From a virus, in IMG/VR virus record IMGVR_UViG_3300017748_000013, positions 1-49,249 of that record: a stretch of 49,249 nt of DNA; one strand, written 5' to 3'. The notes under the pieces are model-generated. The model saw only the letters and a program-made list of their open reading frames with translations, made no database searches and was not told the DNA's origin. This document shows, one piece after another, positions 5,901 through 48,052 of this stretch. The first letter of the stretch is position 1. Every line of letters begins with the position of its first letter. Position numbers and translations under genes: made by a program.

Positions 5901-8862
5901 ACTCGTGGGTGGCGGTGTAGGGGCAATAGCAAAGGGTGCCACATTAGCCGCAGCAAAAGTTGCAGGTAAGGGCGCTGTATCTACTTCTGCCAAGGTCGCG
6001 GCAAATCAAATAGGTATAAGGTCGGGTATGTCCGCCGCTGCCGCCACTGATGCTAGTGAGGCTTTTGGTGGTAGTGCTGACGGGGCTTATGACGAAGCAT
6101 TTGATGCAAAGTTAAAGCAATTACAAGAAAACAACCAAGCTACAGTAGCTCTTATGGAAGCTGCTGGCATACCTGTCGGCAACTTACTTAATAAAAATGG
6201 GCTGTTTGCAGGGCAAATGGATGAGATTCACGAGTTTGCCCATAACGCTGCAATGCTTAATGGTAGCACCGCTGCTGTGCTGTCGCTTATTTCCTACGGT
6301 ATGGGCGGCGAAGCATTAGATAAGTTTTTATTGGGTGGCAGAAAGGGTACCTTAGATCCAAAAGTAGCAGAAGCGGTAAAAGAGTTAGGTGATCGTATTG
6401 ATGCTGGAGACTCTCTCGTTGCAGGGCTGCAAGCCGCAAAAACTATAGGTACAGAGGGTCTTTTTGAATACGTAGAAGAAGCGTTAACTGCCACACAATT
6501 AGAGGCTTTTTTAACCTCGGTAGACCCAAACCGCGATTGGGGCGCTGCAATAGCTTCTTCAGGTATGGGAGGTCTTGTTGGTGGTAGCGGAGTCACAGCA
6601 GCCGTATTGGGTATTGATAGCGCACAGGATGCCTTAGCTGGAGCTATACGTTCTACTCATGCGGGTGTAAATGCCACAATAGAAGGCGCTAAAAACGGGC
6701 TAATTAACGATGCAGAGGCTAGAGCGGCCCTAGCAGAGTTTGGCATAACCAGTGATGAATATGGCGGCTTACAGACTAGCCTGCTAAATGATGCGTTTGA
6801 TGCCGACTACACTACATACACCGAATCCAGAGACGCATTTCAAGCTGAAAACCCAGACTATGAGCCTACTGAAGCCGACATACTTCAGTTTACTGGCAAT
6901 CGTGCTGAAGACCGTTTAGACGCAAGCGTTGCTGATTTAGTAGACCGCAGCTACATCGACGCGCAAGAAGTTATAGATGCCGCAGCCCGTGAAGGTTTGA
7001 CGTTAACCGAAGAACAAGCTGCCGAATACGTGCGTCAAACTGAATCTGGTCAAGCAAATACCGTGCTAAGGCAACTTCGTTCAGACTTTGACGCACAGTA
7101 CACCACTCGTAATGAAGCACTAGACTATTTTACTGACATTGGGTACGCCCCGACACAAGAAGATTTAGCAGAATTTATTGGCAAAACAGAAGCGGAGGCG
7201 GAAGCTGAAGATGGTGGAGTAGCGGACTACTCTGAAAACATACTAATGCTTCAGTTGGATGGGTTACTTGGTGATCCAAATGCAACTCCCGAGCAGATAG
7301 ATAGTTTATTAGACCGTATTGAGTTTATTAACGAAGGTTCCACTGCCCGTGAAGATGCTGGCATTGACGATGATGGTAACAGATCAGAACCTGAGCCAGA
7401 ACCTGAGCCAGAACCTGAGCCAGAACCTGAGCCAGAACCTGAGCCTGAGCCAGAGCCAGAACCTGAGCCTGAGCCAGAGCCAGAACCTGAGCCAGAACCT
7501 GAGCCAGAACCTGAGCCAGAACCTGAGCCAGAACCTGAGCCAGAACCTGAGCCAGAACCTGAGCCAGAGCCAGAGCCTGAGCCTGAGCCTGAGCCTGAGC
7601 CAGAGCCTGAGCCAGAACCTGTAGAAGATGCCGTAACCAAAGAAGACCTCGAAGATCTAGAAGATAGTCTACTTGAGCGCATAGAAAAGTTAGAAACAGA
7701 AGGCAAAACTCGTGATGAGGCGTTAGCACAAGCAATAGAAGAGCTTGCTGGTGATCTAGGTACAACGAAAGAAGACTTATTAGATGCTATAGCAGACTCT
7801 GAGCTTTCTATACGAGAAGATTTTGCTGATGAGCTAGACAATCTAAAAGAAGAATTAACAGATGAAATAGCTAGTTCAGAAGATCGTATCTTAGAAAAAA
7901 TGGCCGAATACGAGAAGGCAGGGCTTTCTCGTGATGAAGCATTAGCTAAAGCCATAGAAGATGTAGCTGAAGATTTAAACCTTAGTGTAGAAGAGTTAAG
8001 TGATCTAGTAACTGGGGTAGCTGAAGATTTATCTAGCGATATTGATACCGCCAAACGTGACCTTCTAAACAAGATTGACGAAGCAGAGCAAGCGGGTGCC
8101 GACAGAGATGCTGCACTAGGCGGTGCAATTTCTGACCTCGCTGAAGAGCTTGGCATCACAGAAGAAGCTCTGCTTGAGCGTATTGGTGAGTCTGAAGAGT
8201 CTTTACGCACAGCAATCGGTGAAACAGAAGCCGACCTTCTACGCGCCATTAGTGACACTGAAGGTGCACTGACCGAAGAAATAGAGGCTGTTGCTGATCT
8301 TGTAGGCAAGCCTGCTTCAGAGGTAACTGACACCGACATAGATTTTGTTGCAGATCTTATAGCGCAACAAGAAGCCTTAGAAGAAGGAGCTGCGTTTGAT
8401 TTCACACAAGAACAACTACTGTATGACGTAACAGGCGATCAGATAGTTGACCAAGCTGACTTGGATCTTTTGCAACAAGCGCAACAAGACCCTAATGTAC
8501 TGTTTGACTTAGAAAGTAAGTTTGCTCCTACTGGTATATACGCTACACAACAAGAACTAGCACAACAGCAGCAGCAGTCGCAGCAACAGATACAACAGCA
8601 GATTAAGACAGAAGCTACAAAAGATGCAGCTAGGGACTTTTTTGGAGAGCTACTAGGCGCTGCCGATTTAACAGGGCAGAAGGTAGATGTAGCTCAATCG
8701 CCGCTTGCTAAGATAGATTATCTGTATGATTTTGGTAGTATTTTTGGAACACCTCAACAAAGTGCGCTATTTCCAACCCCCTATGGCAATATAGGTGGGC
8801 GTAAACAAGGCGGTCTAATAGAGCGTAATAAAGAATTACTGCGTGTTATCGGAGAAGACTAA
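2983..8862 (+). CDS. Giant (1959 aa) virion-associated protein with Glu-Pro repeat and triplicated helical repeats
   Basis: The N-terminal 250 residues are soluble and mixed. Residues about 262-305 are an Ala/Val/Gly-rich hydrophobic stretch, and another lies near 990-1030, so membrane interaction is possible. Residues 1469-1546 are 39 uninterrupted Glu-Pro dipeptides, a stiff acidic rod. Residues about 1563-1734 hold three copies of a helical repeat with core (T/S/D)RD(E/A)AL followed by AI and (D/E)L. Residues 1814-1830 ([17 protein letters not shown]) look like a dockerin or EF-hand calcium loop. A Gln-rich segment precedes the end, which carries [12 protein letters not shown]. Length, position and composition suggest an internal virion, ejection or tape-measure-like protein of a podovirus. 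I cannot name a family and enzymatic activity is not evident. Confidence 0.65.
7387..7620 (+). repeat. Glu-Pro codon repeat, 39 dipeptide units
   Basis: This 234-bp tract inside the 1959-aa gene consists only of GAA/GAG and CCT/CCA codons. The main repeat unit is the 12-mer GAGCCAGAACCT, interrupted by GAGCCTGAGCCAGAGCCA variants. It encodes an unbroken acidic polyproline-type rod. Such tracts change length easily by slippage, so the unit count may vary among relatives or be affected by assembly. Confidence 0.95.
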
Positions 8863-12349: not shown

Positions 12350-15300
12350 ATGGCTGAAGCCTATTCAGACCGCACAGAAGAGCTAGGTATTGCACTGAAG
12401 AATGCTCATGCTGCTGGTGATACTAGAGCAGCTAGGATTCTTGCTACAGAACTGCAAAACCAACTACGCCGCGACCAGCGATCCGCTAAAATACGCGCAG
12501 CTATACCTCCTAGAGAAACCGGCGTTTTTGAGGACATCACCACCGGATTCGGCGCGGGTCTTGTTGGCATAGGTGAAACAGCCAGTTTAGGTGTTGCTAG
12601 CCTATTAGAAGAGAAAGAAGAAACCGCTGCTAGAAACCGCATTAGAAGTATAGCGGACTCTTTACGTCCTGAAGGTGGCGATCCTGATTCACCTACCTAC
12701 AAAGTAGCCTCTGGTCTTGGATCTCTTGCTGGTTTTGCTGGGGCTGGCTTAGGCGCTGCGGTTCTTGGCGCTCCCGGCGCGGCTGTTGCTACAGGCTTAG
12801 GAGGCTTAGGATACGCGGCTGCAAGAGGTGAAGCGAGCGAACGAGCACGCGCTGCTGATGCCACAGTAGAAGAACGAGAAAAAGCAGTAGATGCACCTCT
12901 TGTCTTACTAGCAGGTGTACTCGAAGCAATACCTCTTGCAAGAGTGGTTAAACTTGCTGACCTACCTACGCTCACTAAAATCTTAGAAAAAATACCGCCT
13001 GAGAAAGTTGAGACTATAAGTGAGCGTCTTACTAGCGCGGGTATAACAGGCGGCGCAGAACTTACGCAAGAAGCTGCATCCAACATACTGCAAAACCTTA
13101 ACGAGCAAGAATACAACGCTGCTAGAGAAATTCTTGGTATTGACACGGCAGAAGAAGCCGCAGTTGGTGGTGCCGCAGGTGCCATACTTCAAGGGTTTGT
13201 TGATCTCTTTGCTCCACGACGGGCAGGTAAAACTGTTGGTGATGCCGCAAAAGAAGAAGCAGAGAAACCTGATGACGTTGCAGGGCTGCTTGAGTTTAAA
13301 CCCGAAGAACCTACTCAGCTTGACTTAGCACTTGATACCGAAGAAGCCGAAGCTATTGACGGCGAAGCTATACGCGCACAAGTGTTCAAGGGGTTCAAGA
13401 AGCCATTTGACCAGCTAACTGAGAAGCAACAAAAAACTGTACAAGACAGGATAGTAGCTTTGTCGCCTGCCGAGTTTGATGCGCTTGAGCGTGTGATTGA
13501 AACCATAGAAGAACGCACTGCCGAAGTAAGCCCTGACCAAATGTCACTGCCGGGATTAGAACCAGAACGTGCACGGTTTGGCCCACAACTACAGGAGCTG
13601 CCTGCACCAGAAAAAGAAAAACGTGCGTTAGGTGATGTTGAAAGACAAGACGTGTTTGTACCTAGAAGGGGACGAAAAGCAGAAAGAGATCTTGAAAGGC
13701 AGCTTGAAAGACGTAGACGCGATACAGATACCGTTGCGGGTGAAACACTTGCCGTTACCCCAGAAGGACAGGCACTTACTCGACAAGAAGTCTTAGACCG
13801 TATTAACCAGCGTGGTAAAGAACAAAAAATTACGGACGATATGCCCGCCGCAGAAGTGCGACTTGCGCGAGAACGTGAAGCAATAGCCCAAGAGGAACAG
13901 GGCGAGATGTTTCCTACAGAGCTTGCCATAGAGAGAGAAGCTGCACTCGACGCTACTGAAACTCGTGACGTTGATACCGCACCCGCGCCTCGCGTGGTAA
14001 CAGAAGAAGATTTAACTACCGCTGGGTTTGCTACAAACAACACGAGAATACGTAGTCAAGTTCTTGGTAAGGACTTAACAGACCCTACTATACGTGACGC
14101 GCTGACTAATGAAGCTAATCGCCTAAAGTCTCAAAAGGTTCGGCGTGGTGTTACCCAGTTATTAGAAGGAGTACCTAGTGAGCAACGTCGTATACCCGAT
14201 AGAGTTTTGGCACCGCGAAAAAGAAGAGCTGTCGCAGAGCGAGATAGAGCAGGCGATGAAGCTGGTGTGTCAAGCGTGGATTCAGTGGGAGAGCGTGAAG
14301 ATACCGGCGAGGTTGTTGCACTTGACGGACGAGCAGTGGGAGATGTTGGAAGAGACGCTGATGCAGTTGATGTTGGAAAAGGAAAACAGCGTGGTGCACT
14401 AGCTCGTAAGGTCAAAGCTAAGGTAGGTCGTAAACGTACCAAAGCTAGTATGTCTGAAATTGACTCGACCACAGGTGATGCAGAGATTAGATTCCCTGAC
14501 GGTAGCGTAGAACGTGTTAGGAGAGAAGAGTCTGTAGACCCTGAAACCGGAGAAACAGATTTTAGCTTCATATCTCTTGATCGCCCTGATCCTGACTTCC
14601 CCGCTGATGTAGAGGCTCCTCTACCACTAGGTTCTACTCAAGCGGCTGCTATTAAGAAGTTAACAGAAGTTCGTGAAGCTCCACCTAGAGAGCCTGTAAG
14701 AAGAGCTACGGCGGCGGACATAGCAGAAAGACGTGCGGATGAGCGTGATGCTATTGCATTTCAAGAAAGGCTTACCACTCAAAGGCAAACAGAAAGGGCA
14801 CAGCGAGTTGCCGAAGGTGAAAAGTCTAGGGCTGAAACACAAGAACGCATAAAGACAGCCGACCTTAGAAAAGTTAGGGCTGCACAACGCGAGGCCACTG
14901 ACAGGCTAGAAGAAATAACTGCTGAAAGAAAAGCTGTAAGAAAAGCAAAAGAAGATGGCGTCGAAATACTCTACGCCCCCACACGTACGGAAATTGAATT
15001 AGATTCGGTCATGCCGAAACAGGTACAGAAAGCGTTGCGTAATAATGAGTTACGACGTGCGTTATTAAACCTAGCGGATTCTTCAAATGATAAGTTTATT
15101 AAGCGTGCGGCTAAAAAACTTGCAGACTTTACCGGCGACACCCGAGTACAAATTGTACCGCAAGAAAAACTAGGTACTCGCGGTGGAAGCACCATTGATG
15201 CTGTATTCGTCACCAAAGATAACACGATACTTCTTAGCGAAGACTACTTAGATACTCATGTACTGCTACATGAAATGACGCATGCCGCTACTATTAACAC

Positions 15301-18300
15301 GTTACGGAATAAAGCGCATCCGACGACCAAACAACTAAACAAATTATACGAAGATACAAAAGATTCCCTCTCCTCCTACTACGGTTCTAAAAATGTTGCA
15401 GAATTTGTAGCTGAAGCGTTTTCTAATCCTAAGTTTCAACTTGAACTGGCAGGTATAAACCCTAAAGGCGAGAAACTTAGCGCATGGCAGCGATTCCTTA
15501 AAACCATCATGGATTTTCTTAAAATTGGCAAACTCGGCCCTAAGACCGCCCAGCGTGAAGCAAGCCGCATGATAGAAGAAATCCTTGCCCCTGCTGCTAG
15601 ACACCGTTACGGGCCTACCCTGCGGTCTATGAGTGACAGAGAAGGCGTCACAGAAATAGCAGATCGCATAAAAGATTCTCGACGTGACTTAAAGAGCAAA
15701 GAAGGGCGTAAGGCGGCTGGGGCTAAACTAGCGCGAGATATTTCTGCTGTGTTAGATAAAGATTCCACACAGGGAAAACAAGGTAAAAAAGTAGTTTTAG
15801 GGCTTCTACCCAACCAATCCGTATTGGATATAGCTGAGCATCGGGGTATAACTGGCGCTAAGAAAGTTCTTACAGCTATAGAAAATCAACGTGGTGATCT
15901 AACCGTATCAGAACAAAACACTCGTAGAAGACTAACTCCTATATTCAGGTGGGCGAACAACGCATCTGAAAAAACAATGAAGGATTGGAATAACCTAATC
16001 TACGACAGTACATTAGATGAAGTAGACCCCGCTCTTACCCCTGCACAGGCTAGAAAGAAATACGGTAAACAGACTGTAGAAGGCACTAACCAGCTAAAAG
16101 TAGCTCGACACAAAGAACTACACGCTATCTACATGGGTGCTACGCTCGGCAAAGACGGTAGGCAAGCCTACGATAACTTGCGACAGTTCTATAAGGATCA
16201 GTACAACGAACTGCTAAACGCACTCAAAGGTAGAATCGACAACGCTGATATTAACGACGAGCAAAAAACGACGCTCAAAAACGAACTGCTCAGTAAGTTA
16301 CTAGAACGTACGGGCGTAGAACCATACTTTCCCTTAACTCGTGAGGGTACACATTGGCTAGCAGTAAAGAATCCAGAAGCACTGTCCGAGTCTGCTGTAT
16401 TTGCCTTTAAGACGCAGGGGGACAGGCTCAAAGCGGCAGAAGACTATGCTGCACAAGGATTTGATGTAGAAGTATTCAACCCTGATGAGTCTAATGTCTA
16501 CACTGATCCTCCATCTGGATCTTTCATATCGCAAGTGCTTGGCGTACTCAACGCTAATGATGCAGCGCCAGACGTAAAAGAACAGGTAATGCGCTTGTTC
16601 CTTGAGTCATTACCAGAGTCTTCTTTTGCAAAGGGGCTAGTTAAGCGTAAAAAGACCTCGGGTTTTGACGTTGATGCGGTAGAAGCAGCCAGAACAAAAG
16701 CGTACGACTTAGCGCGACAAACGGAGCGTATAAAAAATACTAACCGCATAATGCGGCTGAAAGATGAGTTTTTGGAGAACGTACCTAAAGACCGTAGGGA
16801 CAGTGCAGTGATTGCAGAAGTGGTGAACCGTGCCAACTTTGCGGTTAATCCACCCAGAGATACTGTTGCCAAAAACGCAAACCGACTTGCATTTATGTGG
16901 ACTATCGGCTGGAACCCCTCGTCTGCAATAGTAAACCTGTCTCAGATACCTCTGTTTGCCTACCCAATGCTCGCTGGCAAATACGGCTACGGGGACACTC
17001 GTAAGGCTCTTGGTGCTGCAACAAAGTTGTTTATGGGGTCTCCTTCTAACAAGTCAGCAGAAACTTTGTTCGGAGACAACACTACACCTGCATCTGTAAA
17101 AGAAGCATTCCGTGAAGGTGGTGTGGGACAAGCTCTTGAAGCCATGCAAGACAAGGCTTTGAAATCAATCGACAACTACTACACGTTTACTAGAGACAGT
17201 GACGGCTCGTTAGTTTTCTCAGTGCGCGAAGACTTAGATTTACCTGCAACAAAAGATGAAGCTGACGGTAAAGTATCCAAAGAAGAACTAGATAATCTCA
17301 AGCCTTTGATAGAACTAGCAGCCCGTCGTGGGCAGCTCAACTCATCATTCCTAGCGGAGACACTCAACGTAGATCAATCAGGTCGAAAGCAAAGTGTTCC
17401 TGATGTAGTGACGAACATATCTGCATTGATGTTTCACGAAGCAGAAGTAATGAACCGCCAAGTAACGCTAATCACTGCGTACAATCTTGCACTGAACAAG
17501 TTAACAGGTGGTAAGAAGCCTACATTTGAACAACAGCAACAAGCCGCAGAAGAGGCAATATACGAAACACAACAGATTAACGGTGGTGCAACCCTAGAAA
17601 CTGGCCCACGCTTTGCGCGAAGGCATGTTGGTCGCGTGGCTCTGATGTACAAGAACTACGGCATTCAGATGTACTACACGATGCTCAAAACCGGAAAAGA
17701 AGCACTTGATATAGCGCGAGCTTCTTTTGCTAAAGATCTTGAATCAAAGAATATAGCAGCAGGTATGAACCTAGAGACTGCAAAAGCAGCAGCCAGTGCC
17801 GCAGCCGATGCTTTGCGATCTGATGCAGCAAAACAGCTTGCAGGAGTTCACCTGTCCGCGTTGTTCTTTTCAGGAGTGCAGGGAATACCAATATACGGTG
17901 CGGTAACCATGCTGGCGGACATGTTCTTCCTAGGGGACGATGACGAAGAAGCTGACTTTTATGTGCGTCGTGGAATAGACAATGAACTGTTGTACCGAGG
18001 TCTAGTCTCTGAACTTACTGGATTCGACGTAGCTCAGCGTGTGAAGTTAACGGACTTAATATATGAAGCCGACAGGTTTAACAGTAATCCTTCACCAGAG
18101 GAAGAGTTTGCTCACCTTGTAGGTGGCCCTGCGTGGAGTGTGTACCGCAGAGCTAGAAAAGGTATTGATAAGATAGCAGAGGGTGACTTAGTAAGAGGTA
18201 TGGAAGACATACTACCGGGAGCTGTCAGGAACGCAATGCAGGCTGTCAGGTTTGGTATGGAAGGGGGTATCCGCACTCGGCGTGGCGACTTTATGTACGA

Positions 18301-18670
18301 CGACATAACAGCCGGTGATTTGGTTGCCAAGGTGCTTGGATTCCCACCAAACGAATACACCAAGGAGATGGATGAGACTTCTTTTGGTAAAAGGATGTCA
18401 GATAGGGATATAGCTAAACGTGCAAGGCTAGCGAAAAAACTGTTCATAGCTAGACAGTACAGAGATTTTGAAGCAGAAGAGGATATACGGCGCGAGATGG
18501 ATGAGTTCAACGCTTCAGCAGCCGTAGACATAAATCCTAACCTGTTTATAGATGATGAGTACCTAGATAGATCGTTCACTAGACACAGCTCAACAAGCGC
18601 AAAAATGCATAACGGCGTATTACTACCCGAAAGTGTAAAAGCTATCGTAGAAGAAGACGGGTTTTTCTAA
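12350..18670 (+). CDS. Giant polyvalent virion protein (2106 aa) with HEMTH metallopeptidase-like motif
   Basis: This is the largest gene. The N-terminal region has Gly/Ala hydrophobic stretches (residues about 60-150) that could insert in a membrane. Residues 974-978 are HEMTH in LLHEMTHAAT, the HExxH zinc-peptidase signature, with EFVAEAF (Glu1018, Glu1022) downstream as possible third ligand. Residues about 1500-1750 include AFMWTIGWNPSSAIVNLSQI, which I associate with the large polyvalent protein domain LPD38. A late hydrophobic segment (VHLSALFFSGVQGIPIYGAV) is followed by charged helices. Polyvalent proteins are ejected with DNA into the cell and carry several effector domains. It is the last late gene before the convergent boundary. 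Domain limits are approximate and peptidase activity is inferred. Confidence 0.65.
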   Translation: MAEAYSDRTEELGIALKNAHAAGDTRAARILATELQNQLRRDQRSAKIRAAIPPRETGVFEDITTGFGAGLVGIGETASLGVASLLEEKEETAARNRIRSIADSLRPEGGDPDSPTYKVASGLGSLAGFAGAGLGAAVLGAPGAAVATGLGGLGYAAARGEASERARAADATVEEREKAVDAPLVLLAGVLEAIPLARVVKLADLPTLTKILEKIPPEKVETISERLTSAGITGGAELTQEAASNILQNLNEQEYNAAREILGIDTAEEAAVGGAAGAILQGFVDLFAPRRAGKTVGDAAKEEAEKPDDVAGLLEFKPEEPTQLDLALDTEEAEAIDGEAIRAQVFKGFKKPFDQLTEKQQKTVQDRIVALSPAEFDALERVIETIEERTAEVSPDQMSLPGLEPERARFGPQLQELPAPEKEKRALGDVERQDVFVPRRGRKAERDLERQLERRRRDTDTVAGETLAVTPEGQALTRQEVLDRINQRGKEQKITDDMPAAEVRLAREREAIAQEEQGEMFPTELAIEREAALDATETRDVDTAPAPRVVTEEDLTTAGFATNNTRIRSQVLGKDLTDPTIRDALTNEANRLKSQKVRRGVTQLLEGVPSEQRRIPDRVLAPRKRRAVAERDRAGDEAGVSSVDSVGEREDTGEVVALDGRAVGDVGRDADAVDVGKGKQRGALARKVKAKVGRKRTKASMSEIDSTTGDAEIRFPDGSVERVRREESVDPETGETDFSFISLDRPDPDFPADVEAPLPLGSTQAAAIKKLTEVREAPPREPVRRATAADIAERRADERDAIAFQERLTTQRQTERAQRVAEGEKSRAETQERIKTADLRKVRAAQREATDRLEEITAERKAVRKAKEDGVEILYAPTRTEIELDSVMPKQVQKALRNNELRRALLNLADSSNDKFIKRAAKKLADFTGDTRVQIVPQEKLGTRGGSTIDAVFVTKDNTILLSEDYLDTHVLLHEMTHAATINTLRNKAHPTTKQLNKLYEDTKDSLSSYYGSKNVAEFVAEAFSNPKFQLELAGINPKGEKLSAWQRFLKTIMDFLKIGKLGPKTAQREASRMIEEILAPAARHRYGPTLRSMSDREGVTEIADRIKDSRRDLKSKEGRKAAGAKLARDISAVLDKDSTQGKQGKKVVLGLLPNQSVLDIAEHRGITGAKKVLTAIENQRGDLTVSEQNTRRRLTPIFRWANNASEKTMKDWNNLIYDSTLDEVDPALTPAQARKKYGKQTVEGTNQLKVARHKELHAIYMGATLGKDGRQAYDNLRQFYKDQYNELLNALKGRIDNADINDEQKTTLKNELLSKLLERTGVEPYFPLTREGTHWLAVKNPEALSESAVFAFKTQGDRLKAAEDYAAQGFDVEVFNPDESNVYTDPPSGSFISQVLGVLNANDAAPDVKEQVMRLFLESLPESSFAKGLVKRKKTSGFDVDAVEAARTKAYDLARQTERIKNTNRIMRLKDEFLENVPKDRRDSAVIAEVVNRANFAVNPPRDTVAKNANRLAFMWTIGWNPSSAIVNLSQIPLFAYPMLAGKYGYGDTRKALGAATKLFMGSPSNKSAETLFGDNTTPASVKEAFREGGVGQALEAMQDKALKSIDNYYTFTRDSDGSLVFSVREDLDLPATKDEADGKVSKEELDNLKPLIELAARRGQLNSSFLAETLNVDQSGRKQSVPDVVTNISALMFHEAEVMNRQVTLITAYNLALNKLTGGKKPTFEQQQQAAEEAIYETQQINGGATLETGPRFARRHVGRVALMYKNYGIQMYYTMLKTGKEALDIARASFAKDLESKNIAAGMNLETAKAAASAAADALRSDAAKQLAGVHLSALFFSGVQGIPIYGAVTMLADMFFLGDDDEEADFYVRRGIDNELLYRGLVSELTGFDVAQRVKLTDLIYEADRFNSNPSPEEEFAHLVGGPAWSVYRRARKGIDKIAEGDLVRGMEDILPGAVRNAMQAVRFGMEGGIRTRRGDFMYDDITAGDLVAKVLGFPPNEYTKEMDETSFGKRMSDRDIAKRARLAKKLFIARQYRDFEAEEDIRREMDEFNASAAVDINPNLFIDDEYLDRSFTRHSSTSAKMHNGVLLPESVKAIVEEDGFF

Positions 18671-22082: not shown

Positions 22083-22100
22083 GTTCTAACATGTTAGAAC
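22083..22100. promoter_or_regulatory. Palindrome copy 1 (GTTCTAACATGTTAGAAC)
   Basis: A perfect 18-bp palindrome lies four bases upstream of the first ATG of the primase-helicase gene, where a ribosome binding site would be expected. A bound protein or RNA hairpin here could block expression of that gene. The same sequence occurs five more times in the early block. Confidence 0.75.
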
Positions 22101-22115
22101 CCTTTCGATTAAAGA

Positions 22116-22167
22116 CACTACGGCAGAGGTGTCGATACACCCTTTTCGGTCTAGCCTAGCCGTAGTG
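22116..22167 (-). other. Long-loop inverted repeat between ssDNA-binding protein and primase-helicase genes
   Basis: CACTACGGC (22116-22124) and GCCGTAGTG (22159-22167) form a 9-bp stem around a 34-base loop in the intergenic leader of the primase-helicase gene. On the minus strand the stem is followed by TCTTTAATC, only weakly T-rich, so it could be an attenuator or mRNA structure and is not a convincing terminator. Confidence 0.35.
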
Positions 22168-24260: not shown

Positions 24261-25796
24261 TTATGCAAGTATTTCTTTGTATAAATCAATAATTTTTGTG
24301 TGTGTGTCTATCTTATTATCTAGTAATGAGTAAACACGCTTTTCGATGTGCGATCCCTGCAACTGCACAACTGTGCACTTGTGATCTTGCCCCGCTCTGT
24401 GCACACGCGCATTGGCCTGTGCATACGTTTCGACTGAGCTTGTTGGCCCCCACCATACCACAGTATTTGCAGCGGTCAGTGTAACTCCATGCGCTGCGGC
24501 TTGGGGTTGAATCACTAAGACTCTGGGGGCATCCGAGGTTTGGAATGCTTTGAATATATCAGTGCGTTGCGAAGCAGAAACAGCACCGCTAATTACTTCA
24601 GTAGGGATACCGTCTTTACGTAGCTTATCGGCAAGCAGCTTAATCGTGTGTTTGAACGGAACGAACACCAGCACTTTCTTACTCGACTCATCTATAACCT
24701 CACGTAACACTTTGTATCGGTGCTTGATGTCGAACTCCAATGTCTCGCCGCCATCTGTATAGACCGCACCAGAACTTATTTGCAGGAGCTTGTTCATGTT
24801 TACGGCTGCGGTATTGGTGGTAATCTCCTCACCAGCCGCCTGCATAATCATTTTGTCTTTCAGTTCTTTGTAGTATTTCTGCTGCTGCCGAGTCAACTCA
24901 ACCTCTCGTTTGGTATATACGATCTCAGGCAGGTCGAGGCATTCTTCTTTTGTAAACCGAATCGCAGGCTGTAATGCTTTGAAGACCGTTTCAGTAGCGT
25001 CAGGCTTGGGTATCCACTTAAAGTTGGTCACCTTGTACATGACCATATCTCTGAACGACCCAAAGAACCGAGGCACGGATTTGGGATTAATGAGTTTTGC
25101 TAGGCCATAGGCATCGACGGGACTTTGAGCGGCTGGTGTACCTGTTAACATCCAAAGCCATTTGTCGGAGCCAAGCAATCTGTTCAGTGTCTTCCATCGC
25201 TTCGTCTGTGCGTTCTTGTAGTGAGTTGCCTCATCAACAATTATCAGATCGAACCCACCGTTTGCTACAGCTTCCGCCACAATCTCTACTCCGTCATAAT
25301 TAATTATGACGAACTTGGCATCTCCACCAACTATTTCTTCACGTTTCTTAGCAGAACCGTAGGCAATATCTACGGTACGGTGCATCGCAAAGGTAAACAG
25401 ATCTTCTTTCCATGCAGAATCCATGATCGACAACGGGCAGATGATAAGCACCCGATTGATCTTACCTTGGTTCATTAAAAAATCTGCTGCCCATATCGCA
25501 CTGGCTGTCTTGCCAGTGCCCTGTTCGTTAAAACAAAAGGCTCTCTTGTTGAGCGTGAGAAAAGATGAAGTGGTCTTTTGGTGGGCAAACGGTTTGTGCT
25601 TACCCGTCCACTGATACTTACCTTCGATAGGCGACGGTGCCTTGATACCAAGATTCTTCAGCACATGCGTTTCATCAATACCCCAATTAACCACTACCTT
25701 GTTATCAGGTAGTGCTTTACTTTTTGGTATGACCTGCGTGACTTTCTCTTGATTGCGGAGCCTGAGTAATAAGGCTTTGTTGTCTATGACTCTCAC
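24261..25796 (-). CDS. SNF2/DEAD-like superfamily 2 helicase
   Basis: The 511-aa protein carries the SF2 motifs in order: Walker A EQGTGKT (91-97), motif Ia VLIICPLSIMDSAW, motif II DEATH (188-192), motif III LTGTPAAQ (218-225), motif V HGVTLTAANTVVWWG, and motif VI QANARVHRAGQ (460-470). This is the SNF2-related phage helicase type used in replication, recombination or fork remodelling. The start is GTG in TAGTG, overlapping the preceding stop by one base. No nuclease domain is fused to it. The gene lies between the alpha-CTD-like gene and the coiled-coil gene. Confidence 0.88.
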   Translation of the reverse strand: MRVIDNKALLLRLRNQEKVTQVIPKSKALPDNKVVVNWGIDETHVLKNLGIKAPSPIEGKYQWTGKHKPFAHQKTTSSFLTLNKRAFCFNEQGTGKTASAIWAADFLMNQGKINRVLIICPLSIMDSAWKEDLFTFAMHRTVDIAYGSAKKREEIVGGDAKFVIINYDGVEIVAEAVANGGFDLIIVDEATHYKNAQTKRWKTLNRLLGSDKWLWMLTGTPAAQSPVDAYGLAKLINPKSVPRFFGSFRDMVMYKVTNFKWIPKPDATETVFKALQPAIRFTKEECLDLPEIVYTKREVELTRQQQKYYKELKDKMIMQAAGEEITTNTAAVNMNKLLQISSGAVYTDGGETLEFDIKHRYKVLREVIDESSKKVLVFVPFKHTIKLLADKLRKDGIPTEVISGAVSASQRTDIFKAFQTSDAPRVLVIQPQAAAHGVTLTAANTVVWWGPTSSVETYAQANARVHRAGQDHKCTVVQLQGSHIEKRVYSLLDNKIDTHTKIIDLYKEILA

Positions 25797-26089
25797 TACC
25801 GTGATTCCGACTTAAACAAAACAAGATGATGTCTGGCTAAGGCGTTCAAGAGTTCAAAGAGAGAATCGGTGCCGAGTCCATTTATTGCGTATATCTCTTT
25901 TGCAGTCCACCCAGCTAAATCTCTCACGTATAAAATGCCTACACCGCCCAAGCAGTTTTGTGTGCGACTATTGAGATTTAGCTCTCGTATACGCATCTCT
26001 GTTTTAATTGAATCCATATCCCTTCCAATAAAAAGTGGGGCAGGGCCGTAAGGTTTGCCTACGCCGAGCATCCGGTTGAGGCCCACCAT
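25796..26089 (-). CDS. RNA polymerase alpha C-terminal-domain-like protein
   Basis: The 97-aa product aligns without gaps to the DNA-binding core of the RNA polymerase alpha-CTD: LNLNSRTQNCLGGVGILYVR, then DLAGWTAKEIYAINGLGTDS. Compared with E. coli RpoA from memory, Arg42, Asn45, Cys46, Gly73, Ser76 and Glu79 match Arg265, Asn268, Cys269, Gly296, Ser299 and Glu302, while Lys298 is replaced by Asp75. The fold is a helix-hairpin-helix relative that binds UP elements and activators. No alpha N-terminal assembly domain is present. The start is uncertain: ATG 26089 is given, with TTG 26110 and ATG 26017 (after GGAAGGG) as alternatives. Since the phage uses host polymerase, a transcription-redirecting role is plausible; a generic HhH DNA-binding protein is the alternative. 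Confidence 0.72.
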   Translation of the reverse strand: MVGLNRMLGVGKPYGPAPLFIGRDMDSIKTEMRIRELNLNSRTQNCLGGVGILYVRDLAGWTAKEIYAINGLGTDSLFELLNALARHHLVLFKSESR

Positions 26090-26276
26090 TACTGACGGGC
26101 CGTACCCCAAAACTGGTTGTGGTGGTTGGTGAAATTGACGCCTTCAACTCATCGCTCTATCAGACGATGTGTGGGGGAGCGTACTTCATTTCACCCTTTC
26201 TTTTGCAAGGCTTAAGGATAACGCCTTGGGAGAAAGTCGGATGCCACCACTCACCCGACTTCCATGCCCCCACTAG
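26090..26276 (-). other. Leader region before the alpha-CTD-like gene
   Basis: About 190 bases with no supported gene. On the minus strand AAAGGGTGAAATGAAG could start a 9-codon peptide ending TGA, too short to call. I see no clear sigma70 promoter, although the upstream terminator implies either read-through or a local promoter here. Confidence 0.4.
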
Positions 26277-26308
26277 AAAAAGTCCCGTCTTCGGTCACAC
26301 GGACGGGA
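26277..26308 (-). terminator. Intrinsic terminator on the minus strand
   Basis: On the minus strand TCCCGTC and GACGGGA form a 7-bp GC-rich stem (arms 26302-26308 and 26283-26289) around a 12-base loop, followed by C and TTTTT. It lies 34 bases beyond the stop of the 29-aa membrane peptide gene and about 190 bases before the alpha-CTD-like gene, so it separates an upstream from a downstream early transcript or dampens read-through. Confidence 0.75.
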
Positions 26309-26341
26309 ACGTGCTAACTGGGAGAAAGGAAACCCCCCGAC

Positions 26342-26431
26342 CTAAACCATTAAATACAAAATATACGCTACGAGATATATACCAGCAGCGACACCAACTC
26401 CAGCCAAAATACCTTTGACTTCCTCGCTCAC
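26342..26431 (-). CDS. 29-aa single-span membrane peptide
   Basis: A GTG start at 26431 overlaps the stop of the HNH-like gene by four bases (GTGA), and the frame runs 29 codons to TAG 26342-26344. The peptide begins with Met-Ser-Glu-Glu-Val-Lys and continues as one hydrophobic span: GILAGVGVAAGIYLVAYIL, then YLMV. An intrinsic terminator follows. The overlap, the clean membrane helix and the terminator argue for a real gene, although the Shine-Dalgarno sequence is weak. Possible roles include host membrane modulation, superinfection exclusion or lysis timing; none is demonstrated. Confidence 0.5.
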   Translation of the reverse strand: MSEEVKGILAGVGVAAGIYLVAYILYLMV

Positions 26432-26730
26432 TGCCTACGCCGTGGTCGGGCAGATGCTTTCTTCAAGGGCTTCTTACCATTACGACTACGGTTGGCGCTT
26501 TTACTTTCTACACGCACGCCGTCTTTGTTTGAACCACCACGGCTTAACGGCTTATTGTGACTTACGTCTTTGCCTTCACGTTTGTCTGCTCTACCATCTC
26601 CGTTGGCATCGCGGCTCGTTCTGTCCATAGCTCTACGCGCACGTTGTCTTTCCATACGTGCTTCATGCGCTTTGCTACCCACAGGCGGATTCTTTTGTTT
26701 CTTACGATCTTTTGGATTCTTGTACGGCAT
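26428..26730 (-). CDS. Small basic HNH-like protein
   Basis: The start is set at ATG 26730, which overlaps the stop of the nuclease gene (TGATG) and has GGAAGGAA upstream. The 100-aa product is strongly basic. Its C-terminal half carries DVSHNKPLSRGGSNKDGVRV followed by ESKSANRSRNG, which resembles the His-Asn part of HNH endonucleases (DxxHxxPxSxGGxN...NxR). The usual zinc cysteine pairs are missing, so it may be a reduced HNH nickase, perhaps helping terminase or DNA processing, or a non-catalytic DNA binder. It is coupled to the membrane peptide gene downstream. Confidence 0.6.
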   Translation of the reverse strand: MPYKNPKDRKKQKNPPVGSKAHEARMERQRARRAMDRTSRDANGDGRADKREGKDVSHNKPLSRGGSNKDGVRVESKSANRSRNGKKPLKKASARPRRRQ

Positions 26731-27401
26731 CAGTTCCTTCCATTGTGTGGGCATTCCGTGACAGGACAGTGCCGTTTGCACAGTCCACTAGGGCTTGGGT
26801 TCCATACATCAACATCAAACGATGACTGCATATCCCCATACCTAGCTAGCCATTTAACCCATAAATTACTTTCCTCTTGTCGTGTAAAAGTTTCCTTTAT
26901 GAGGTCACTACTTACCACGAACAATAAGCCTGCCCGAACAGTCTCCACTTCAGGGTAATGCTTAAACATAGCTAAGGTCATCAATTCTAGCTGACCTTTG
27001 TCTGCGTATCTTGCGGACTTACCTGTTTTGTAATCAACAACCCACGCTAACTTGTCCTCACGATCCAGTATCACAAGATCTGCAATGCCTCTGAACCACA
27101 CATCCTTAGCAAAGAAACTGCATGGCTCTAAGTCCTTAGTCAGACCCATCTTAATCTCACACAGCTTCTCACCTTTCTTGGCGTTCAGCGCGTCAAGTGT
27201 ATTCTTCGCATAACTAAACCTAGGGTCTAGTTCACCACCATCACGTATGTAAGTCTCCGCAGCTTCGTGAAAAGCTGTTCCATACAATGTGGCATCCGTT
27301 TCTTTGAACGGGTACTGGTTGAGTACCTTCTCATGGTAGAACTGTTTAGCGCACTGCTGGTACGCCTTGATCTTACTGAATGACCACGGTGCGGCGTTCA
27401 A
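26730..27401 (-). CDS. PD-(D/E)XK exonuclease, RecB/Cas4-like, possible Fe-S protein
   Basis: The 223-aa protein has the RecB-family nuclease motifs: WSFSKIKAYQQC at the N-terminus, GTAFHE (His45), GIADLVI (Asp108), VVDYKTGK (Asp123, Lys125) and Gln137. Cys17 together with Cys208, Cys212 and Cys217 near the end reproduces the four-cysteine arrangement of Cas4/AddB iron-sulphur nucleases. It probably resects DNA ends in replication-linked recombination. No ATG precedes the first motif; the start is TTG at 27401, overlapping the previous TGA, with GAGG ten bases upstream. There are no cas genes nearby, so a CRISPR role is not supported. Confidence 0.82.
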   Translation of the reverse strand: MNAAPWSFSKIKAYQQCAKQFYHEKVLNQYPFKETDATLYGTAFHEAAETYIRDGGELDPRFSYAKNTLDALNAKKGEKLCEIKMGLTKDLEPCSFFAKDVWFRGIADLVILDREDKLAWVVDYKTGKSARYADKGQLELMTLAMFKHYPEVETVRAGLLFVVSSDLIKETFTRQEESNLWVKWLARYGDMQSSFDVDVWNPSPSGLCKRHCPVTECPHNGRN

Positions 27402-45807: not shown

Positions 45808-45876
45808 TACTGTATAAGTATCTCATCCCTGACAGATACATCCCGTATCTGACACTAGCCACGACAGGAGATCACA

Positions 45877-46425
45877 ATGGCTAATACGACGTTTAACGGC
45901 CCCGTCCGATCAGAAAACGGGTTTAAGGTTGTTTCAAAGAACGCAAGCACTGGTGCGCTAACTGATGTAGTAGATATTGCTTCTACTGGCATTGTTACAA
46001 ACAAATACGTAAAGCACGTTGGCTTTGCCACAGGTGTAACGGTTAACACCACAGCAGGTGACAGCCCCTCTATTGGTGAATTTACTCAGCCTGCCAACAC
46101 GATCATCACCGACATTAAGATCTTCTGTGACACCTCACCAGTTATTGGTACGGGTGACATTGGTTATGAAGTCGGCACTTCTAGTTCTGGCGCACAGATT
46201 GTTGCAGCAGTGACTGATGAGATACTAGACGGCGGCACCACTGTTGTTGAGCACAACGTAACCACAACAACGCTTGTGACTCAGACGCAAAGCGGTACTA
46301 CGGCACCTGCTTCTGTTCAGTACACTTCTGCTGCAAGAACTATTTTTTGTAACATCACAAACACTGTTGACGCGACCACCGCTGGTTCTTTTACGTTCAT
46401 CATTGAGTACGTTCAGATAGCGTAA
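45877..46425 (+). CDS. Virion structural protein, 182 aa
   Basis: The product starts ANTTFNGPVRSENGFKVVSK and is Thr/Val/Gly rich with strand-like alternation throughout (TTTTLVTQTQSGTTAPASVQ). I recall the N-terminal pattern from abundant structural proteins in cyanophage and marine phage genomes. ACAGGAGATCACA precedes ATG. It is the first gene after the capsid terminator. It may be a head fibre or decoration protein. Confidence 0.65.
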   Translation: MANTTFNGPVRSENGFKVVSKNASTGALTDVVDIASTGIVTNKYVKHVGFATGVTVNTTAGDSPSIGEFTQPANTIITDIKIFCDTSPVIGTGDIGYEVGTSSSGAQIVAAVTDEILDGGTTVVEHNVTTTTLVTQTQSGTTAPASVQYTSAARTIFCNITNTVDATTAGSFTFIIEYVQIA

Positions 46426-47362: not shown

Positions 47363-48052
47363 ATGGCATACTTGCAAAGTAACATCCCGTACTTTAAGTG
47401 CTGGGTGCGAAAGGAGTACACACACAATCACGAGAAGTATCATGGCGAGTTTATTCACGCTATGGCGATTGCAGTAACGACGATGCCAACTAGGTGTTTG
47501 AGTTTCCAAGTAATTTTTACTGGGGCTGAAACATACGACGAAGAAGACGAACCCAATGTGCATGGAGGTGCAATGTGGGCACGGATGCCGATTACAGCGT
47601 TGGTAGGAGACACCCCTTTCGAGGAGTGGCCCGAGCCTATGCCTGTATGGGCAGCACAGCCTTGGGATTGCAGTTCGAGGGATCACGCTGTGTACGTGCT
47701 TGATAGAGCTACACCATGCCCTTGGCTAGCAAAGATAGACGGGGAGATGTATCCCGCGAAGTATATGTTCACGGTGGACTATACGAACAACGAGATTGCT
47801 GATGACCCTGCACAACACAAGCAGAGTCATGTGATGGAGTTACTGGATGCTGGTGAGTGGACGGGTAACATTGTAGCTCTACCAAACAATAGGGTGCGGG
47901 TAACACATCCCGCTTGGTTTGAAACGGGAGAAGGCGCACCAGATTTTCGTCCTTCTCAACACATTCACTACAGCAAGTCTGATCTGGACTACACGCTGGA
48001 CGTGAATCAAGTGTTTGATAACTTGTATGCGGAGAAAGACGATGGCGAGTAG
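47363..48052 (+). CDS. Conserved late protein, 229 aa, possible virion component
   Basis: The sequence begins AYLQSNIPYFKCWVRKEYTH and contains HGEFIHAMAIAVTTMPTRCL, WARMPITALVGDTPFEEWPE, ARPW-type aromatic segments (AAQPWDCSSRDHAVYVLDRA) and an acidic end (AEKDDGE). Trp, His and acidic residues are frequent. I recall similar proteins in marine phage head modules without a known role. The compact sequence has no TM segment. The gene abuts the previous stop and overlaps the next start. Confidence 0.6.
   Translation: MAYLQSNIPYFKCWVRKEYTHNHEKYHGEFIHAMAIAVTTMPTRCLSFQVIFTGAETYDEEDEPNVHGGAMWARMPITALVGDTPFEEWPEPMPVWAAQPWDCSSRDHAVYVLDRATPCPWLAKIDGEMYPAKYMFTVDYTNNEIADDPAQHKQSHVMELLDAGEWTGNIVALPNNRVRVTHPAWFETGEGAPDFRPSQHIHYSKSDLDYTLDVNQVFDNLYAEKDDGE

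Follow-up and report, generated by a model that had tools for sequence, protein, structure and literature searches.

A stand-alone phage protein with the fold of the RNA polymerase α C-terminal domain is encoded by an exchangeable cassette upstream of an SNF2-type helicase gene

In the C-terminal domain of the Escherichia coli RNA polymerase α subunit (αCTD), residues 259, 261, 286 and 287 are used towards σ and activators, with residue 261 facing σ and residues 286 and 287 facing activators; a lone, untethered αCTD binds UP-element DNA weakly. Phages are known to act on host transcription through this domain: the bacteriophage T4 proteins Alt and ModA ADP-ribosylate its residue Arg265 (PMC2988021). 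While the T4 proteins are enzymes that modify the host domain, the phage described here brings its own copy of it. Proteins of this kind are already on record. The BFVD matches of our protein include entries named “RNA polymerase, alpha subunit, C-terminal” (A0A6J5M7I6, A0A6J5MNY7 and others), proteins of Rhodococcus phage Finch and Mycobacterium phage Mithril carry the same annotation, and all of these, like the “DNA binding protein” gp24 of Microbacterium phage Atraxi, contain an αCTD-like domain as does our protein. Matches listed under that name are 98–240 aa long and have extra residues beside the domain. The “RNA polymerase subunit alpha” of Bacillus phage Goe8 (210 aa, Pfam E-value 4.3e-22) and gp23 of Ruegeria phage V16 (288 aa, 1.2e-10), both strong αCTD matches, also have extra regions, and there is no helicase among those of their annotated neighbours that were read. 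The protein studied here differs from the annotated phage αCTD proteins in being a bare 73-aa domain, in having a helicase gene behind it and in its own pattern at positions 284–287. It is the helicase-linked bare-domain family and its cassette behaviour that are new. In the full-text literature, mostly outside subscription journals, we found no study of the function of any phage-encoded αCTD protein.

The gene is located in a 49,249-base stretch of marine phage DNA (IMGVR_UViG_3300017748_000013), hereafter the window, and its genes include those for terminase, portal and head proteins, DNA polymerase, primase/helicase and nuclease. A scan of the window proteins, which covered a subset of the ORFs of a possibly incomplete record, recognised no RNA polymerase. 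Several other features of the window were recorded. A palindrome, GTTCTAACATGTTAGAAC, occurs in six copies (at positions 22083, 31759, 35333, 36039, 36578 and 37340), five of them exact and one with one mismatch, against a chance mean of 0.01; these are likely phage repressor operators, as predicted from the sequence. Two Rfam matches above the gathering score were obtained, a Mu-gpT-DE RNA (45827–45879, plus strand) ahead of 45877–46425 and an int-alpA RNA (22101–22166, minus strand) near the primase gene. The plus strand at 12350–18670 encodes a polyvalent-type protein of 2106 aa with an LPD39 domain and a DarB-like antirestriction match, a 1959-aa ORF contains an internal array of 12-nt tandem repeats (7337–7669, plus strand), and a gene at 47363–48052 (plus strand), among the late genes, matches a PHROG annotated as ferredoxin.

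The sequence-only reading had reported an ORF with αCTD similarity. The ORF is present on the minus strand and its similarity is not due to chance: the 73-aa protein matches the Pfam family RNA_pol_A_CTD (PF03118) with an E-value of 1.2e-10 and 41.4 bits (cut-off 23.8), and it scores 36.5 bits with an αCTD HMM built from 66 distinct cellular or cellular-type rows, none from the phage family of the window, while the best of 2000 shuffled copies reaches 7.1. The gap-free alignment on which that reading relied is real, though longer than the approximately 45 residues given for it, since the Pfam match pairs residues 5–61 with profile positions 10–66 of 67, i.e., 57 on both sides. A phmmer search of solved structures retrieved mostly RNA polymerase α subunits; its top row was a repeat protein, 8vd6, none of whose stretches passes on its own. 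A structure model built from 13 rows, all viral, has a pLDDT of 87.5 and a pTM of 0.74, and replaced a poor first model (pLDDT 58.5) from five near-identical rows. The best PDB match of the model is the E. coli αCTD bound to CAP and DNA (Foldseek, 5.3e-05), and VIA-align 2 superimposed it on the αCTD chain 1z3e_B with a Z of 12.6 and 1.2 Å over 67 residues. The profile and structure comparisons that the sequence-only reading had proposed as checks thus came out in its favour: the predicted model has the αCTD fold and RNA_pol_A_CTD passes in Pfam, with no HhH family listed at E-values up to 1. PHROGs contain no family for the protein.

One alternative is that the αCTD likeness is superficial and that the protein is a generic helix-hairpin-helix (HhH) protein. 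The αCTD itself contains HhH-type hairpins, and Gly296 and Ser299, both kept in our protein, would also suit a generic hairpin. However, RNA_pol_A_CTD is the only Pfam family that passes, the sole other family listed being TfoX_C at 0.11, and the 50 VIA-align 2 rows shown look like RNA polymerase α chains of bacteria or plastids. On these results the generic HhH protein is rejected as hardly credible; neither a better generic match nor a different fold, the two outcomes that would have spoken for it, was found. We conclude that the ORF encodes a stand-alone protein of the αCTD fold.

The absence of an α N-terminal domain, also claimed from the sequence, is borne out by the 73-aa length of the ORF, and RpoA models match at their C-terminal end only, far under their cut-offs (TIGR02027, 37.1 versus 227.8 bits). 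Since the N-terminal assembly domain of RpoA is missing, the protein is not a polymerase subunit. A truncated or decayed rpoA was likewise rejected, on dN/dS values of 0.11–0.16 between the window gene and its versions on the related viral contigs L159 and L172; the gene is under purifying selection. Comparisons with close relatives, where dN/dS rises to about 1.0–1.2, are based on 0 to 7.5 synonymous differences and are little informative. A single-protein query of genome contigs yielded 169 pattern matches, none of which was confirmed, leaving the protein without a close cellular or prophage source in that search; a plasmid search gave one weak match, an RpoA. The genome of Vibrio hannami (G005, which holds locus L051) has a second PF03118 match at C5:8197–8394 in a 192-aa frame (106 bits), beside which a 334-aa frame of rpoA size is also present.

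The αCTD gene occupies positions 25796..26017 of the minus strand, from an ATG at 26017 to a TAG at 25798–25796, and is preceded by a probable ribosome binding site, GGAAGGG (26020..26026, minus strand), judged by its sequence. The 5′ end proposed earlier, 26089, is very probably wrong, and the ATG at 26017 behind GGAAGGG is the most likely start; the longer ORF matches RNA_pol_A_CTD at 2e-10 and 40.7 bits (cut-off 23.8). The ATG at 26089 was rejected because it sits in a leader that, in related phages, stands ahead of other genes. In contigs L007–L009, the leader ends at the same ATG and there runs into the helicase gene (in L007 and L009 it is 93% identical to that of the window over 430 nt), with the GGAAGGG site also standing ahead of the helicase; in L010, it joins a 64-aa ORF at the same ATG. 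Since the upstream stretch precedes other genes with its junction exactly at this codon, and since relatives of the L159 type, which do not have this stretch, start at the same Met (MNSIKTEM where the window has MDSIKTEM), translation is placed at 26017.

The leader itself (26018..26427, minus strand) is located between an upstream gene (26428–26781) and the αCTD gene and is probably non-coding, although its frame stays open in the window and would permit translation. The leader of the window and of L007–L012 is mobile and heads different genes of related phages, and its pieces are present or absent independently of each other. Just ahead of the ribosome binding site there is a strongly conserved hairpin, GGGGTACGGCC...GGCCCTGCCCC (26037..26108, minus strand), followed by a T-run (26031–26035), which by appearance is attenuator-like or terminator-like. 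Blastn shows 92–100% identity around this hairpin in most contigs that carry it, ahead of different genes, and its pattern matched nine viral-contig stretches. The hairpin folds with −38.6 kcal/mol (z −1.82, with 7 of 200 shuffles equally good); the leader fold is only slightly better than that of shuffles, and the copies are too alike for covariation. A second, GC-rich hairpin, CCCGTC...GACGGG followed by ACTTTTT (26284..26307, minus strand), is terminator-like by eye, is not reported by the terminator scan, and is retained in the alignment of L001–L003 and L005–L010. No Rfam family was found for the leader and a phage collection gave no match. In T4-type phages, PeSL is a mobile regulatory cassette in which a stem-loop, an early promoter and a terminator move together between genes. 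The leader hairpins here also stand ahead of different genes, but the promoter scan showed no σ70-like promoter in the window leader.

Residues are numbered below as in E. coli α. The protein shares fold and family with the RpoA CTD and, as stated in the sequence-only reading, keeps Arg265, Asn268, Cys269, Gly296, Ser299 and Glu302, with Lys298 replaced by Asp. That Lys298 alone changes is true of the residues listed there; beyond them, Lys297 is replaced by Thr, Glu261 by Asn and Glu286 by Ala. Across 13 phage rows, Arg265 and Gly296 are found in all 13, Asn268 and Ser299 in 12, and Cys269 and Glu302 in seven. Position 298 is Asp in six phage rows (the window and L159 types), Lys in six and Asn in one, and four of the five DNA-facing residues (Arg265, Asn268, Gly296, Lys298 and Ser299) are kept in the window protein. 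Neither Lys nor Arg is found at position 297 in the 12 helicase-linked rows. Asp298, together with the loss of Lys/Arg297, should weaken contact with the DNA backbone, judging from the sequence.

The surfaces other than the DNA face are strongly changed. Trp284 and Lys287 are each present in 12/13 phage rows and in 12/12 helicase-linked ones, position 286 is Ala, Val, Thr or Ser, and positions 301 and 304 are mostly hydrophobic. The cellular set, by comparison, has Lys or Arg at 297, Glu at 286, Lys at 298 and Arg or Lys at 284 at 113/113 loci and Glu at 261 at 112/113, but it is largely gammaproteobacterial and the contrast with the phages may be smaller against other phyla. These 113 loci, which represent 64 distinct aligned sequences, come from one scan (80, the best rows being gammaproteobacteria), from other genomes (32) and from E. 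coli. Positions 284–287, 301 and 304 thus form a phage-specific pattern, which sets the protein apart from the RpoA CTD, and residues 259, 261, 286 and 287 are not conserved in the phage rows.

Two further scans revealed the αCTD gene on 20 related viral contigs besides the window. It occurs in three sub-types, those of the window, of L159 (75–76% identical to the window protein) and of L216 (about 35–41%). On all 20 contigs an SNF2-type helicase gene lies downstream, directly on 19 and after an extra small ORF on L232. Contigs L247 (3001–3339) and L248 encode an αCTD-like domain and, after it, a longer C-terminal tail; their 6150-nt stretches gave no helicase match, and the count of 20 excludes them. 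When the search was started from the helicase, 9 of the 80 loci carried the αCTD gene; eight of the 80 reach less than 300 nt upstream, and seven of these were left out of the tree and start counts (L150 was kept). In a quickly built tree of 86 helicase rows, presence of the αCTD gene changes nine times, seven of these changes being forced by well-supported branches. With such a patchy distribution and at least seven gains or losses, the gene behaves as an exchanged cassette. Moreover, the αCTD genes of L159 and L172 differ by three nucleotides, while their helicases fall into separate supported groups, which favours exchange between lineages. We conclude that the αCTD gene is an exchangeable cassette upstream of the phage SNF2-type helicase gene. 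Alternative cargo of the slot includes a 412-aa protein without a Pfam match (L196:1766–3001), a PDDEXK nuclease (L211:2320–2733) and an HTH protein (L165:107–370), with an HNH protein slightly further upstream in L224 (2458–2871); the PDDEXK, HTH and HNH proteins resemble host-takeover or conflict cargo.

In the window, the helicase gene (24261..25796, minus strand; SNF2-rel_dom 2.8e-24, Helicase_C 2.1e-17, phrog_62) begins with a GTG that overlaps the αCTD stop codon (TAGTG), and it is the αCTD gene that has the ribosome site of the leader. The helicase start is GTG in 14/21 rows with the αCTD gene versus 4/64 without it, where ATG prevails (55/64); the 21 rows represent 20 contigs, one of which is listed twice (as L159 and as L239), and include several near-identical sequences. 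A Shine–Dalgarno string within 20 nt upstream of the helicase is found in 0/21 rows with the αCTD gene versus 49/64 without it, for nine strings that do not include the GGAAG of L216-type starts. Given the GTG start, the absence of Shine–Dalgarno strings and the stop overlap, translation of the helicase is probably coupled to that of the αCTD gene.

What the protein does has to be judged from these features. The sequence-only reading pictured an αCTD-fold phage protein lacking the N-terminal domain, which stands, and had it occupy UP elements or bind activators and σ. The latter part fares less well: Asp298 in half of the rows, together with the pattern at 284–287, 301 and 304, argues against simple occupation of UP elements and favours a DNA-binding domain adapted to a different partner, either the host transcription machinery or the helicase, and the proposed host-factor contacts are unsupported because 259, 261, 286 and 287 are not conserved. 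We tentatively prefer, at somewhat less than an even chance, to regard the protein as a small one that binds DNA, modulates host transcription and is made with the phage replication genes. Minor-groove contact residues are retained, with the usual σ and activator faces replaced by the protein's own pattern, and the protein therefore probably acts when brought by a partner, which may be a host factor, the host polymerase or the neighbouring helicase. Once brought to DNA or RNA polymerase, it probably competes with, or stands in for, the host αCTD rather than cover UP elements alone. Family and fold, the kept DNA-facing residues, the dN/dS values, the patchy presence and the conflict-like cargo of the slot all speak for such a modulator, and the T4 enzymes acting on Arg265 are a precedent for phages targeting the αCTD. 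On the other hand, a functional connection with the helicase explains the constant position beside it equally well.

Such a connection would make the protein a DNA-binding subunit that is separate from, but serves, the adjacent SNF2-type ATPase; we consider this on balance unlikely. The αCTD fold would grip the minor groove, positions 284–287, 301 and 304 would dock on the helicase or pair two copies, and the motor would thereby be guided onto AT-rich DNA or onto RNA polymerase that is bound to DNA. Besides the invariable helicase downstream, the probable dependence of helicase translation on the αCTD gene, suggested by the start contexts, and the presence of Trp284 and Lys287 in every helicase-linked row are consistent with this possibility. 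So is what is known of SNF2 proteins, which travel along the minor groove and include RapA, a protein that frees RNA polymerase after transcription (PMC5512222). However, 71 of the 80 helicase loci (in seven of which the upstream DNA is too short to judge) show no αCTD gene, and therefore the helicase works without the αCTD protein. In addition, the slot accepts unrelated cargo, the αCTD-like proteins of Atraxi, V16 and Goe8 have no annotated helicase in the stretches read, and adjacency among related phages may reflect common descent or recombination in the flanking DNA. Pfam gave no backing to a helicase–αCTD fusion in Microbacterium phage Pabst, which a weak tblastn match (E 2) had suggested. 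Less probable again is a decoy that soaks up factors attacking or occupying the host αCTD, such as host defence factors, modifying enzymes or transcription inhibitors from rival phages. Arg265, the T4 Alt and ModA target (PMC2988021), is kept throughout the phage rows and the patchy, exchanged distribution suits conflict cargo, but the protein has no PADLOC match and its non-DNA surfaces are strongly changed, whereas a decoy should preserve them. The remaining probability falls to a generic HhH role or to functions we have not thought of.

A more specific proposal, which we regard as rather unlikely, is that the αCTD is a separate, exchangeable targeting subunit for the SNF2-type motor, with its translation tied to that of the motor. 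If true, the motor would be directed to promoter DNA rich in AT or to host RNA polymerase and would displace or recycle polymerase during takeover. The αCTD is a main hub of bacterial transcription tuning, and a lone domain in which minor-groove contact residues are kept and partner surfaces rebuilt is a natural separation-of-function experiment. Because the αCTD gene has been gained and lost repeatedly in one slot, phages that carry it can be compared with matched phages that lack it, and the family thus offers a testable handle on phage-encoded αCTD proteins.
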